From the NCBI GenBank assembly GCA_024280265.1, contig JAJRQL010000037.1, forward strand, positions 1 to 34,174: a stretch of DNA of 34,174 bases, given 5' to 3'. The translations under genes were made by a program, and so were the position numbers. This stretch comes from Deltaproteobacteria bacterium. Its GTDB lineage: Bacteria > Desulfobacterota > Desulfobulbia > Desulfobulbales > Desulfocapsaceae. Positions within the stretch are counted from its first letter, which is position 1, and the number at the start of each line of letters is the position of its first letter. The notes beneath the pieces were generated by a model, which was given only the letters and a program-made list of their open reading frames with translations, was not told the origin of the DNA and did no database searches. Below, in pieces: positions 9,497-15,401 of the stretch.

Positions 9497-9535
9497 GGAT
9501 AGACTGACAAAACAATTATTACATTGGAGTTCCAT

Positions 9536-10390
9536 ATGGACAGTTCTCAGCTCTTGGGGATCACAACATTTACATACATGTTTTCCACCATTCTTTATGG
9601 CGTAATCTTTATATTCAAGGCAAAAAAGCTTGCTCCTGCGGCAACAATATTCACGATCATAGCCTTTCTCGTCCAGACCGTCGGCCTCCTCCTCCGCTGG
9701 CAGGAGTCGTATCAACTTGGATATGGCCACGCTCCTCTGACCAATATTTACGAGTCTGTAGTCTTCTTTGCGTGGACCATTATCTTTCTCTATCTCCTTA
9801 TTGAGTGGAATTTTAAAACCCGTGTCATCGGAGCCTTTGCTGTACCATTCGCCTTCCTGGCCATGGCATACGCCTCTTTTGCATCAGGGATAAACAAAGA
9901 GATCAACCCCCTTGTACCTGCTCTGCAATCAAACTGGCTGCTTGCCCACGTTATCACCTGTTTTATCGGTTATGCTGCCTTTGCCGTTGCTGCCGGACTT
10001 GGTATCATGTATCTGATAAAAAAACACGAGCGACTCCAGACAGACCACCAACGACCAGACTCTTCTTGGCACCCTGCCACCATTAAAGGTTATTGACGAT
10101 ATCACCCACAAAACAATGGTTTTTGGTTTTCTCTGGCTCTCTGTGGGTATCATCACCGGAGCCATCTGGGCCAACTCTGCCTGGGGAACCTACTGGAGCT
10201 AGGATCCAAAAGAAACCTGGTCCCTCATCACCTGGTTCATCTATGCCATTACATTGCATGCCGTTACACTCGTGGCTGGGGTGGAACCCGGATTGCGTGG
10301 CTTGCGATATTTGGGTTTGTGTCTGTTATTTTCACCTATTACGGAGTTAACTTTCTCCTGTCAGGACTTCACAGCTACGGATCCAACTGA
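9536..10390 (+). pseudogene. ccsA: cytochrome c biogenesis protein CcsA/ResC, disrupted
   Basis: The haem-handling partner of ResB; full span 284 codons. Start ATG 9536 with TTGGAGT upstream. Residues 1 to about 170 are intact, with TM segments and the pattern GYGHAPLTNIYESVVFFAW. Then (1) a frame change of +1 near 10030-10062; the homologous sequence resumes as [19 protein letters not shown] in the next frame. (2) An in-frame TAG at 10200-10202 in the WWD haem motif, which reads WGTYWS[12 protein letters not shown] where family members have Trp. (3) A one-base loss at about 10259-10262, after which [13 protein letters not shown] and the C-terminus [16 protein letters not shown] return to the original frame. 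Three independent lesions make a functional product unlikely. The organism may have a second copy. A perfect terminator follows. Confidence 0.88.
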
Positions 10391-10525: not shown

Positions 10526-12601
10526 TCAGTTGCTCTGCATCTTTGAGATATCTCCCACCTTCAGAAAAAGCGTTGAAACAGCGGTGAGGAGGTTGAGCCG
10601 GTTTGAACGTACGGCCTCATCTTCAGCCATAACCATTACCTCATTAAAGAATTGATCCACAGGCCCCTTCAAACTCAGCATTGCTGCAAGGGCATCATTG
10701 TAGTCATAGCGTTCAAGCATGGGTTCTACTTCAAAGGAAAGTTTCTCAAATACTGCAGCCAGTTTCTTCTCGGCATCCTCAGTAAGCAACTCTTCCCTTA
10801 CCACGGTTGCCTTGTTATCCTTAATTATATTACGAATACGTTTGAATGACGCCGCAAGGACTGAAAAATCTTCTTTTCCACGGATTGCAGTGAGTGCTGC
10901 TATCTTTTTCAGGGCATCGTTAACATCGTCAAAATCTACACTGGTCACAGCCTCAACAGCTTCCTGGTGAGCACCCCGTCCAACCTGATCATTAACAAAA
11001 CGTCCCCGAATATATGTAACAATCTGTTCCACTGTCTCCTTACTCCCATTGACCTTGTCACCATAGAGTGAAAGGACCTTATGCACCACATCCGCAAGGG
11101 AAAGATTCCAGCCAAAGTGTTCGATAATATGCAGAATAGCAATGGCAATCCGACGCAGCCCGAAAGGATCGGCGGTGCCAGTGGGTACCTGGCCGATACC
11201 AAAACACCCGGAGAGAGTATCCAAACGATCAGCAAGTCCCACAATAGCACCGAGATCTGATACAGGAAGTTCAGCTCCTGCACGCTTTGGATAATAGTGC
11301 TCTTGAATAGCCAGGGCAACATCAGGACTCTCACCATCATTAAGTGCATAGACACAGCCCATATTTCCCTGCAGCGAGGGAAATTCACCAACCATATCGG
11401 TGAGCAGATCTGTCTTACATAAACGGGCAGCACGACAAACCTCTTCAACAGCATCCGGAGCAAAGTGGTCAGCCAGCAGGGCTGAAAGCTTGACAATACG
11501 ATCAGTTTTTTCAAGCATTGTTCCGAGTTTAGACTGGAAAACAATTCCTGTCAGTGCGTCCAATCGTTCTTCCAGTTTCTGTTTTTTGTCACCGCTAAAG
11601 AAGAAAAAAGCATCTTCCAGTCGCGCTCTCAAAACACGTTCATGTCCAGTGCGAGTGAGAGCAATATCTTTTACGTCTGTGTTGTTCACAGCAACAAAAT
11701 TTGGCATAAGCCTGTTCTCTTTATCAACCACTGGAAAGTATTTCTGGTGTTCACGCATCGAGGTCACCAGTGCCTCATCGGGTAATTCGAGGAATTTTTC
11801 GTCAAAACTCCCACACACGCCGAAAGGTTTCTCCACCAGATTACATACAGTATCGACAAGAGTTTCATCAACTGCGACCTTTGCAATAGCAGAATCGAGG
11901 GTACTGGCGACAGCCTCTTCTATTTCTGTGAGCACGGCAGTCCGGCGTTTAGCAGGATTTACATCGACAAAGTACCGGGCAAGAATTTCTTCATAACTTG
12001 CCACACTCTTAAGTTCCACATCTTTATTGGCCATAAAACGATGACCGCGACTCATATTCGAAGCAGCCATTCCCTCATAACTGAAGGGGATAACAGAGCC
12101 GTTGTGGAGGGCAACAATCCATTGGACAGGTCTGGCAAAAGTTGCGGCGCTACTCCCCCAGCGCATCGATTTCGGAAAAGAAAACCCGTGAATAAGATCC
12201 TTTAGAAGATCGGGCAGCAGTTCCGCGAGAGCCACACCTCTGGTCTCTTGAACCAGCATCAGATATTCCCCTTTTTCCGTCTTCACCACTTGAAGATCGT
12301 CAACACCTGCCCCCCTGGATCGGGCAAAACCCATGGCAGCTTTGGTTGGATTACCATCTGCATCAAATCCCGCCTGCCTTGAAGGCCCCATAACTTCTTC
12401 TCTGAAGTCAGACTGGCATTCTGCAATATCATCAACGAGCAATGCCAGACGACGCGGTGTGCCAAGGGTCAGCACCGAGCCATGGCTCAGTTTCAATTCG
12501 CCGGCAAGACGAATAAAGTTTTCCTTCAACTGGGTCAGGGCAGGTTTCTGAAACCCGGCAGGCAGCTCTTCGGTACCAATTTCAAAAAGTAGTTCAGACA
12601 T
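10526..12601 (-). CDS. glyS: glycine--tRNA ligase beta subunit
   Basis: 691 aa, normal for GlyS. It supplies tRNA recognition in the alpha2beta2 enzyme that charges tRNA-Gly. The N-terminus MSELLFEIGTEELPAGF is diagnostic, as are GTPRRLALLVDD, MRWGSSAATFARPVQWIVAL, MREHQKYFPV and GLADRLDTLSGCFGIGQVPT with DPFGLRRIAIAI. The alpha-subunit gene glyQ, which usually sits directly upstream, is not present; a family C repeat lies upstream instead. RBS is weak. No lesions seen. Confidence 0.96.
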   Translation of the reverse strand: MSELLFEIGTEELPAGFQKPALTQLKENFIRLAGELKLSHGSVLTLGTPRRLALLVDDIAECQSDFREEVMGPSRQAGFDADGNPTKAAMGFARSRGAGVDDLQVVKTEKGEYLMLVQETRGVALAELLPDLLKDLIHGFSFPKSMRWGSSAATFARPVQWIVALHNGSVIPFSYEGMAASNMSRGHRFMANKDVELKSVASYEEILARYFVDVNPAKRRTAVLTEIEEAVASTLDSAIAKVAVDETLVDTVCNLVEKPFGVCGSFDEKFLELPDEALVTSMREHQKYFPVVDKENRLMPNFVAVNNTDVKDIALTRTGHERVLRARLEDAFFFFSGDKKQKLEERLDALTGIVFQSKLGTMLEKTDRIVKLSALLADHFAPDAVEEVCRAARLCKTDLLTDMVGEFPSLQGNMGCVYALNDGESPDVALAIQEHYYPKRAGAELPVSDLGAIVGLADRLDTLSGCFGIGQVPTGTADPFGLRRIAIAILHIIEHFGWNLSLADVVHKVLSLYGDKVNGSKETVEQIVTYIRGRFVNDQVGRGAHQEAVEAVTSVDFDDVNDALKKIAALTAIRGKEDFSVLAASFKRIRNIIKDNKATVVREELLTEDAEKKLAAVFEKLSFEVEPMLERYDYNDALAAMLSLKGPVDQFFNEVMVMAEDEAVRSNRLNLLTAVSTLFLKVGDISKMQSN

Positions 12602-12830: not shown

Positions 12831-13562
12831 TCAGGAAACGGAATCCATGGTGGCAAAGGTGGAATACCCCTCAGCTAGATTCTCCACACGGAGTGAAAAC
12901 CATTTAATGGCATCCTCACCATCAAGACTCCTGGCTATTCTGCGAGTCAGTGATTCCACAGACATACTGTCCTCCCCCTGAATAGGAGCCATATCCTGTT
13001 CATCATCAATGGCAGTCTCAATCAGGGTAATCAGGTCTTCTATCCAGAAAAAGTTCCTGAACTTAACCCCTGTAACAGCACGTCCCCATTGACCAAGAGA
13101 TCTGGGCAGCCCCTGCCGACTCTTCTCAGCAAGGGGAAGGGATACGGGGATTTCCACACGAAATTCAAGATCATCTTCTGTTTCAAGAGATCCATGCACA
13201 CAACACTCATAGCGACGCGACTTGAGTATCCCGGGATCTTCACTGTCACCTGAAAGAAAATAGGCAAAGGACATCTCTATATGAGCCTCCTCTGCTTCAA
13301 GCTTATCCTTCATTTCTCCAAGGATATCATGAAATTTAGCAATATCTATTGCGCCATGATAGCGGTTAAGAATCTCAACAAATCGGCTCATGTGAGTTCC
13401 CTTGAAGTGATGGGGAAGGTTCACATACATATTCACCGTTGCAATGGTCTGCTGCCTGGAGTGCGCCTTATCAAGAACTGTAACGGGATATGAAATTGTT
13501 TTGACCCCAACCTTCTTGATATTTATGCAACGGTGGTCTTCTTGGTTCTGGATATCTTTCAT
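12831..13562 (-). CDS. FolE2-like (GTP cyclohydrolase IB fold) protein lacking catalytic motifs
   Basis: 243 aa. FolE2 is a GTP cyclohydrolase I that makes dihydroneopterin triphosphate for folate and queuosine. Homology is plain at the N-terminus (MKDIQNQEDHR, KKVGVKTISYPVTV), in LPHHFKGTHMSRFVEILNR, in EEAHIEMSFAYFL and in FFWIEDLI. However, the segment where the family has the catalytic LCPCSKEIS...GAHNQR reads SLPLAEKSRQGLPRSLGQWG at the same spacing to WIEDL, so the Cys and His ligands are absent. The later KPDExxVTEKAYENP and the terminal ESIHNH motifs are also replaced (QDMAPIQGEDSMS and ENLAEGYSTFA). No frameshift explains this. It is therefore either a pseudoenzyme with another role or a decaying gene with an open frame. 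It neighbours glyS in the same direction. Confidence 0.75.
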   Translation of the reverse strand: MKDIQNQEDHRCINIKKVGVKTISYPVTVLDKAHSRQQTIATVNMYVNLPHHFKGTHMSRFVEILNRYHGAIDIAKFHDILGEMKDKLEAEEAHIEMSFAYFLSGDSEDPGILKSRRYECCVHGSLETEDDLEFRVEIPVSLPLAEKSRQGLPRSLGQWGRAVTGVKFRNFFWIEDLITLIETAIDDEQDMAPIQGEDSMSVESLTRRIARSLDGEDAIKWFSLRVENLAEGYSTFATMDSVS

Positions 13563-14033: not shown

Positions 14034-14384
14034 TTACGACAAATGTTTACGGACGGCTTCTTTCAATTCACTGATATTGGATGATTTGACCACATATTCA
14101 TCCGACGCCCAAGCACCAAGATCCTGTTTGTATTCATTATAGGCAGAACTGGGAATAACAGGAAGTTTCGGATTGGCCATTTTCATTTGACGTAATGTCT
14201 CAATACCATTCATGCCCGGCATCTGAATATCCAGGATAACAAGATCTGGAGATTCATCTTGAAACTTTTGTATCCCCTCCTCCCCTGTATATGCTGATAT
14301 TACCTCATAGCCTTCATCTTGAAGCTCCTCACGATAGAGCATCTGGATACCTTCTTCGTCATCAACAAGCAGGATTTTTTTCAT
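14034..14384 (-). CDS. single-domain response regulator receiver (CheY-like)
   Basis: 116 aa, one receiver domain and no output domain. The acidic pair is D8-D9, the phospho-acceptor D52 is in LVILDIQMPGMNG, the switch Ser is in VIPSSAYNEY, and the conserved Lys is in EYVVKSS. It would accept phosphate from a histidine kinase not encoded here. It is the last gene of the dnaJ-moaC-DksA-like-galT run; its stop is 17 bases from a B repeat. Confidence 0.92.
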   Translation of the reverse strand: MKKILLVDDEEGIQMLYREELQDEGYEVISAYTGEEGIQKFQDESPDLVILDIQMPGMNGIETLRQMKMANPKLPVIPSSAYNEYKQDLGAWASDEYVVKSSNISELKEAVRKHLS

Positions 14385-14393
14385 GGGTTCCTC

Positions 14394-15401
14394 TTAAGAT
14401 AGTCTTTCCAATGACTCCCGTAAATAGGAGGCGGCCTCTTCAGGGGGCATGGGATTAATATACAACCCAGATCCCCATTCAAAACCTGCAATGGAAGTGA
14501 GTTTAGGCACAATCTCAAAATGCCAGTGAAAATGTTTCATATGCTGCGAACGCAGAGGTTGGGTATGGAGCACAAAATTATAGGGTACATTCGGGATACA
14601 GGCATCAAGACGACTGAGGCTTTCCGACAATATTTCAGCAAGATCTGTAAGTTGCTGTTCAGTCTGTTCATGATATGCAGACGAGTGTCTGAGTGGCAGT
14701 ATCCACATCTCAAAAGGCGTTCGTGGTGCAAAAGGGGTGATGGTTATAAAAGATTCATTTTTACAGACCACACGGACATCCTGCTTCAGCTCCTGACTGA
14801 TGATGTCACAGTAAACACATCGCTCCTTATAATTGTAATACGTCAGAGCACCAGTGAGCTCCGATTCGATTTTCCGTGGTAAAACCGGCAGGGCTACAAG
14901 CTGAGAATGGGAATGTTCGAGGGAAGCTCCGGCGGCTTTGCCAAAATTTTTAAAGATCAGGACATAACGGAAACGATCATCGTGTTCCAGGTCTTTGATG
15001 CGAACCTGAAATGCCCTCAAAACCATGACAATATGCTCGGAAGGCAGTTCTGAGAGGGTATCCTCGTGCCGGGGAGACTCCACAATAACCTCGTGAGCCC
15101 CAATCCCGTTCATCTTATCGTAGAGTCCCTCACCTTCGCGGTTAAGGTCCCCTTCAATCACCAGAGCAGGATATTTATTGGGTACAACACGCACCTTCCA
15201 GCCGGGAGAATCAGGAGCGGAGTTATCTCGGCCGTAAACAAGAACTTCGTGGGGGGTTGTATTTTCGTTACCTTGGCAGAGAGGACAAAACCCGCCTGTT
15301 GTCTGAGACTCAGCAATAACAAAATCGGAGGGTCGTTTGCCGCGCTCTGTGGCTATGATAATCCATCGACCAAGTACAGGATCTTTTCTCAATTCCGGCA
15401 T
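14394..15401 (-). CDS. galT: galactose-1-phosphate uridylyltransferase
   Basis: 335 aa. It transfers UMP between UDP-glucose and galactose-1-phosphate (Leloir pathway), or acts on a related nucleotidyl substrate. HIT-superfamily features: N-terminal PELRKDPVLGRWIIIATERG, zinc ligands in CPLCQGNE and later ERCVYCDI, the active-site EHSHSQLVALP (HxHxQ with the nucleophilic His), and the C-terminal MKHFHWHFEIVPKL. Full length with no lesions. It is nine bases upstream of the receiver gene and five bases downstream of the DksA-like gene, so it is in the operon. The rest of the Leloir pathway is not in the window, so the physiological substrate is not certain. Confidence 0.92.
   Translation of the reverse strand: MPELRKDPVLGRWIIIATERGKRPSDFVIAESQTTGGFCPLCQGNENTTPHEVLVYGRDNSAPDSPGWKVRVVPNKYPALVIEGDLNREGEGLYDKMNGIGAHEVIVESPRHEDTLSELPSEHIVMVLRAFQVRIKDLEHDDRFRYVLIFKNFGKAAGASLEHSHSQLVALPVLPRKIESELTGALTYYNYKERCVYCDIISQELKQDVRVVCKNESFITITPFAPRTPFEMWILPLRHSSAYHEQTEQQLTDLAEILSESLSRLDACIPNVPYNFVLHTQPLRSQHMKHFHWHFEIVPKLTSIAGFEWGSGLYINPMPPEEAASYLRESLERLS

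Follow-up and report, generated by a model that had tools for sequence, protein, structure and literature searches.

A FolE2 paralogue without catalytic residues as the probable second subunit of a two-gene GTP cyclohydrolase IB in Desulfobulbales

A few heteromeric enzymes are known to be put together from half-dead paralogues that complement each other. By analogy, the closest working parallel to the pair of genes described here is the deoxyhypusine synthase of trypanosomatids, a 2:2 assembly of impaired and dead paralogues. As we propose for our pair, it goes back to a duplicated homotetrameric enzyme with inter-subunit sites, and in the resulting DHSc/DHSp heterotetramer both the catalytic and the dead copy are needed, the dead copy raising the activity 3000-fold (PMC3663545). 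The trypanosomatids were called in 2013 the sole known species using such a strategy (PMC3663545). The trypanosomatid enzyme is eukaryotic, unrelated to ours and experimentally proven, whereas the pair that we name alpha and beta is bacterial, order-wide and known from sequence only.

Two described systems are closer in fold. The active sites of type IB GTP cyclohydrolases are located at the interfaces of three subunits (PMC6718149). The homotetrameric GTP cyclohydrolase IB (FolE2) of N. gonorrhoeae (NGO0387, PDB 3d2o and 5k95) shares with beta its Pfam family, the T-fold and the N-terminal DxQ..DxR and KGTHMSRF blocks; it carries these blocks and the Cys/His/Glu centre on one chain, whereas here they are found on two. 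Bimodular (type II) QueF, a T-fold relative, also divides its helix motif and its Cys/Glu centre between two modules, which come together to form a single site (PMC5372742); these modules are fused in one chain, while alpha and beta are split between two genes.

The window, by which we mean the whole stretch of 34,174 nucleotides that was analysed, contains a Cys-less FolE2-family gene, beta, at 12831..13562 on the minus strand, an uninterrupted ORF of 243 aa with an ATG start. Beta matches Pfam PF02649 (GCHY-1) with 151 bits for a cut-off of 25 and misses the cut-off of the NCBIfam FolE2 equivalog NF010200 (133.3 versus 215 bits). Archaeal MptA belongs to the same superfamily, but beta lacks the catalytic residues and scores far under the cut-off of the MptA equivalog (TIGR00294, 42.3 versus 220 bits), which rules out that identification. 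Over its first 100 residues beta is an ordinary FolE2, with DIQNQEDHR at the N-terminus and PHHFKGTHMSRFVEILN. These residues include the block D3..Q5..D9.R11 (13530..13556, minus strand), whose four named residues are invariant in a 28-member alignment of beta and which, according to column retention, beta shares with complete FolE2 but alpha no longer has, and the KGTHMSRF block (residues 54-61; 13380..13403, minus strand).

The alignment shows a different picture for the remainder of the protein, where the CPCS, GAHNQR, KRxDE/Glu201 and SIHxH blocks are all missing from beta. The positions of NGO0387 Cys147, Cys149, His159, Glu201, Glu243, His246 and His248 are without exception replaced or deleted; the first six of these we take to be catalytic or metal residues. 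At the site of CPCSKEIS..GAHNQR (residues 144-159; 13086..13133, minus strand) the replacing sequence has a clade consensus of its own, P..LGxWG, with W159-G160 invariant. The LKRxDEKxxTE/Glu201 block is a deletion site (12963..13007, minus strand) that leaves beta about 10 residues shorter than FolE2, and the terminal ESIHNHSAYA block, here NLAEGYSTFA (residues 228-237; 12852..12881, minus strand), has 2 residues deleted at ESIHNH. Given the missing Cys and metal ligands, beta alone is predicted to have no GTP cyclohydrolase I activity. The original prediction had described an uninterrupted FolE2-like protein without the catalytic Cys and His, a description that the alignment and the 84 orthologues bear out. 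It had also placed strong conservation at both ends and replaced blocks at constant spacing, neither of which holds: measured against the nearest complete FolE2, identity across the clade is 68% in the N-half but drops to 31% in the C-half, and the two deletions break the spacing.

An AlphaFold2 model of beta (pLDDT 78) has a bimodular T-fold. In agreement with the assignment to the family, its top structure matches are the FolE2 structures 2r5r (Z 22.8) and 5k95 (Z 21.5, 222 residues aligned), followed by urate oxidase, and the N-half finds matches in FolE and dihydroneopterin aldolase. Helix 58-66, the first T-fold helix, has KGTHMSRF at its start. From this topology we infer that the block is equivalent to the helix motif of the T-fold relative QueF, and it probably binds the GTP phosphates.

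The window's genome has a second FolE2, alpha (G000:C256:4872-5591), the kind of copy that the original prediction had suggested looking for. Alpha carries CPCS, GAHNQR, TERAYHNP and ESIHKHSAYA, keeps all catalytic and metal residues and passes the NCBIfam FolE2 equivalog cut-off (243.6 versus 215). It is without the N-terminal DxQ..DxR and KGTHMSRF blocks and has PGEYRESCVHTFTSVLN at the KGTHMSRF site. Among distinct sequences, KGTHMSRF is found in 84/84 beta, in 74/74 complete FolE2 and in 0/66 alpha; the 74 complete FolE2, whose sources are other lineages and one atypical genus of the order, all have both N-terminal blocks. CPCS, GAHxQR, KRxDE and SIHxH are each present in 0/84 beta.

For a comparison across the whole protein we scored the columns in which complete FolE2 sequences are invariant to 95% or more. 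This gave 83 columns, of which 24 are retained by beta only, 40 by alpha only, 18 by both and a single one by neither; with larger sets (84 beta, 66 alpha, 75 complete) the corresponding counts are 21, 37, 20 and 1. All but 1 of the 79-83 invariant positions are thus kept by at least one copy, where about 10.6-12 double losses are expected, although the columns are not independent and the retention vectors are blocky, so that the low double loss is matched in 3-5 of 78 circular shifts. The beta-only positions fall within residues 6-68 in NGO0387 numbering, apart from one or two further along, and the alpha-only positions run from 107 to the end. Glu216 is kept in both copies and is not needed by the simplest split, against which it counts.

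The rate asymmetry of the two halves is stronger evidence than these column counts. Mean protein difference in the N-half and the C-half is 0.238 and 0.547 for beta, 0.448 and 0.273 for alpha, and 0.356 in either half for complete FolE2. Furthermore, nonsynonymous sites within the genus show the same mirror image of the halves, with synonymous divergence nearly equal. Because the N-terminal residues missing from alpha are exactly those kept in beta, the simplest reading is that the two proteins are halves of a shared catalytic site. This also bears on the possible pseudoenzyme and on the separate non-catalytic role (pterin binding or scaffolding) put forward in the original prediction: beta does lack the catalytic residues, but a free-standing role is unlikely next to a complementary alpha.

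We consider it very probable that GTP cyclohydrolase IB is here a hetero-oligomer encoded by two genes, with beta as its non-catalytic subunit. In the mechanism that we propose, an ancestral homomeric FolE2 would have been duplicated on the Desulfobulbales stem, and the mixed oligomer would have had two kinds of site, since FolE2 active sites lie between subunits. One of them, complete, would combine the N-terminal blocks of beta with the Cys/His/Glu centre of alpha and would have been kept whole by selection. The other, in which the N-half would come from alpha and the C-half from beta, would have been free to degenerate, and this would have happened in both genes. Beta would then supply the N-terminal wall including KGTHMSRF, the probable GTP phosphate-binding side, and alpha the metal, Cys149 and His159. 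An alpha2beta2 arrangement seems likely, in which two sites would be live and two dead; the physical complex, its stoichiometry and its activity are what we infer from the genes. If one site is kept whole by selection on one half of each gene and the other decays in both, we would expect what is in fact seen: invariant residues fully covered between the two genes, very few double losses and rates that mirror each other.

A different kind of partnership would be a prozyme-type allosteric one, in which beta would attach to alpha and make it more active or more stable without lending any active-site residue, as in the trypanosomatid AdoMetDC (PMC5201418) and DHS (PMC3663545). The co-occurrence of beta with alpha and the selection on beta would fit this as well, but the idea, which we regard as improbable, leaves two things unaccounted for: the invariant residues retained by beta are precisely the ones missing from alpha, and constraint on alpha's N-half is relaxed.

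The shared-site reading is consistent with the distribution of the two copies. The GCHY-1 family is present in 242/243 genomes of the order. Both copies were found in 139 of the 149 genomes that are at least 90% complete, including three in which a copy is cut by a contig end, and in 16/16 genomes with no more than 10 contigs. The remaining 10 of the 149 comprise 6 without alpha, 1 without beta and 3 of genus g57. A FolK control was missed in 3/50 such genomes; the absence of alpha (6/149) and beta (1/149) is near that rate, which does not prove assembly loss as its cause. Each of the 30 genomes behind the beta loci has a second PF02649 match: an intact alpha in 27, an alpha fragment in 1 and an MptA-like copy in 2. 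Such an MptA-like third member of the family, with HMSR, ACPCT, THSQRS and SIHIHD, occurs in many genomes of the order (for instance L140 and L141, in G266 and G263). Since the split arose once, these genomes are not independent tests.

FolK is present in the order, which indicates that folate synthesis is retained. A hidden canonical FolE (PF01227) as the actual enzyme was looked for in 96 genomes of the order and found in none, so that the alpha/beta pair is the one candidate that these genomes yielded for GTP cyclohydrolase I. In other orders of the phylum one complete FolE2 is the rule where the family is present, although a few genomes carry an additional copy or a fragment as well.

Genus g57 has a single complete FolE2 and neither alpha nor beta (L083-L086, L222, L243-L246), and its glyS locus has no FolE2 neighbour. 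In the tree the g57 protein groups with the Neisseria enzyme and not with the split copies, which suggests that it was acquired horizontally. For the order as a whole, we think it likely that Desulfobulbales build their GTP cyclohydrolase I out of two FolE2 paralogues that are half-dead and obligately paired, each contributing one wall of a composite active site, and that the lineage which gained a complete FolE2, probably horizontally, lost both.

The gene neighbourhood bears on another possibility, that beta is an independent pseudoenzyme, for instance a pterin sensor or a scaffold, and that alpha is active as a homomer whose GTP-binding wall is altered. The order dnaJ-moaC-dksA-galT-response regulator-beta-glyS is kept across Desulfobulbales, with moaC undetected in some members; in the window, the conserved downstream neighbour is glyS (glycyl-tRNA synthetase beta; 10526..12601, minus strand) and the conserved upstream neighbours are the response-regulator gene and galT (14034..15401, minus strand), as assigned by Pfam and synteny. 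No clustering of beta with folate genes was seen, and only alpha adjoins one, metF, which among the loci examined is beside it only within the window's genus. The conserved context without a link to folate genes would suit an independent function for beta, and so would the fact that alpha clears the FolE2 cut-off. However, the complementary losses, the joint absence of both copies in g57 and their near-universal pairing would then all be coincidences, and we judge this account very unlikely.

In the window's genome the alpha gene and the end of metF, the gene for methylenetetrahydrofolate reductase, have 23 bp in common (L001, 1474-2238 and 2216-3109, minus strand). In one genome (G104; locus L203, contig G104:C102) the alpha and beta genes are about 2.2 kb apart and flank glyS, while in the other genomes examined a long distance separates them or each is on its own contig; this usual lack of linkage counts against the two-gene reading. 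Elsewhere in the window, a CcsA/ResC-like gene (9524-10350, plus strand) looks broken, its ORF stopping at 10096 and continuing in another frame, through either a frameshift and an in-frame stop or an assembly error.

A scan across genomes for loci of the beta type recovered 39 Cys-less loci, all apparently from Desulfobulbales, and then the canonical FolE2 of other deltaproteobacteria. Between beta and its nearest orthologue dN is 0.040 and dS 0.732, which gives a dN/dS of 0.054; the closest alpha pair has 0.018, and in most other codon comparisons the synonymous sites are saturated. Partial conservation is also seen within the replaced blocks (P..LGxWG, GYSTFA), in a clade that spans the order. 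These results support the earlier view that selection, and not simple decay, has shaped the gene. Although beta has lost all three catalytic blocks, a decaying gene or pseudogene has a negligible probability, and decay or a frameshift is ruled out by the low dN/dS, the intact ORFs, an N-terminal block invariant in 84 orthologues and a locus conserved across the order.

We found no description of a two-gene FolE2 in the literature, as far as open papers go. For annotation, alpha passes as an ordinary FolE2 although it is without half of the invariant wall, and beta may be dismissed as dead. The pattern of losses predicts, residue by residue, which chain gives each side of the FolE2 active site, a prediction that is checkable in the crystal structures. 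The cultured hosts Desulfopila aestuarii and Desulfofustis glycolicus have both copies, which makes the two-gene reading testable now. If true, it would provide an order-wide bacterial case of a heteromeric enzyme from complementary half-dead paralogues, at the first step of folate synthesis, and a clear natural example of complementary degeneration.
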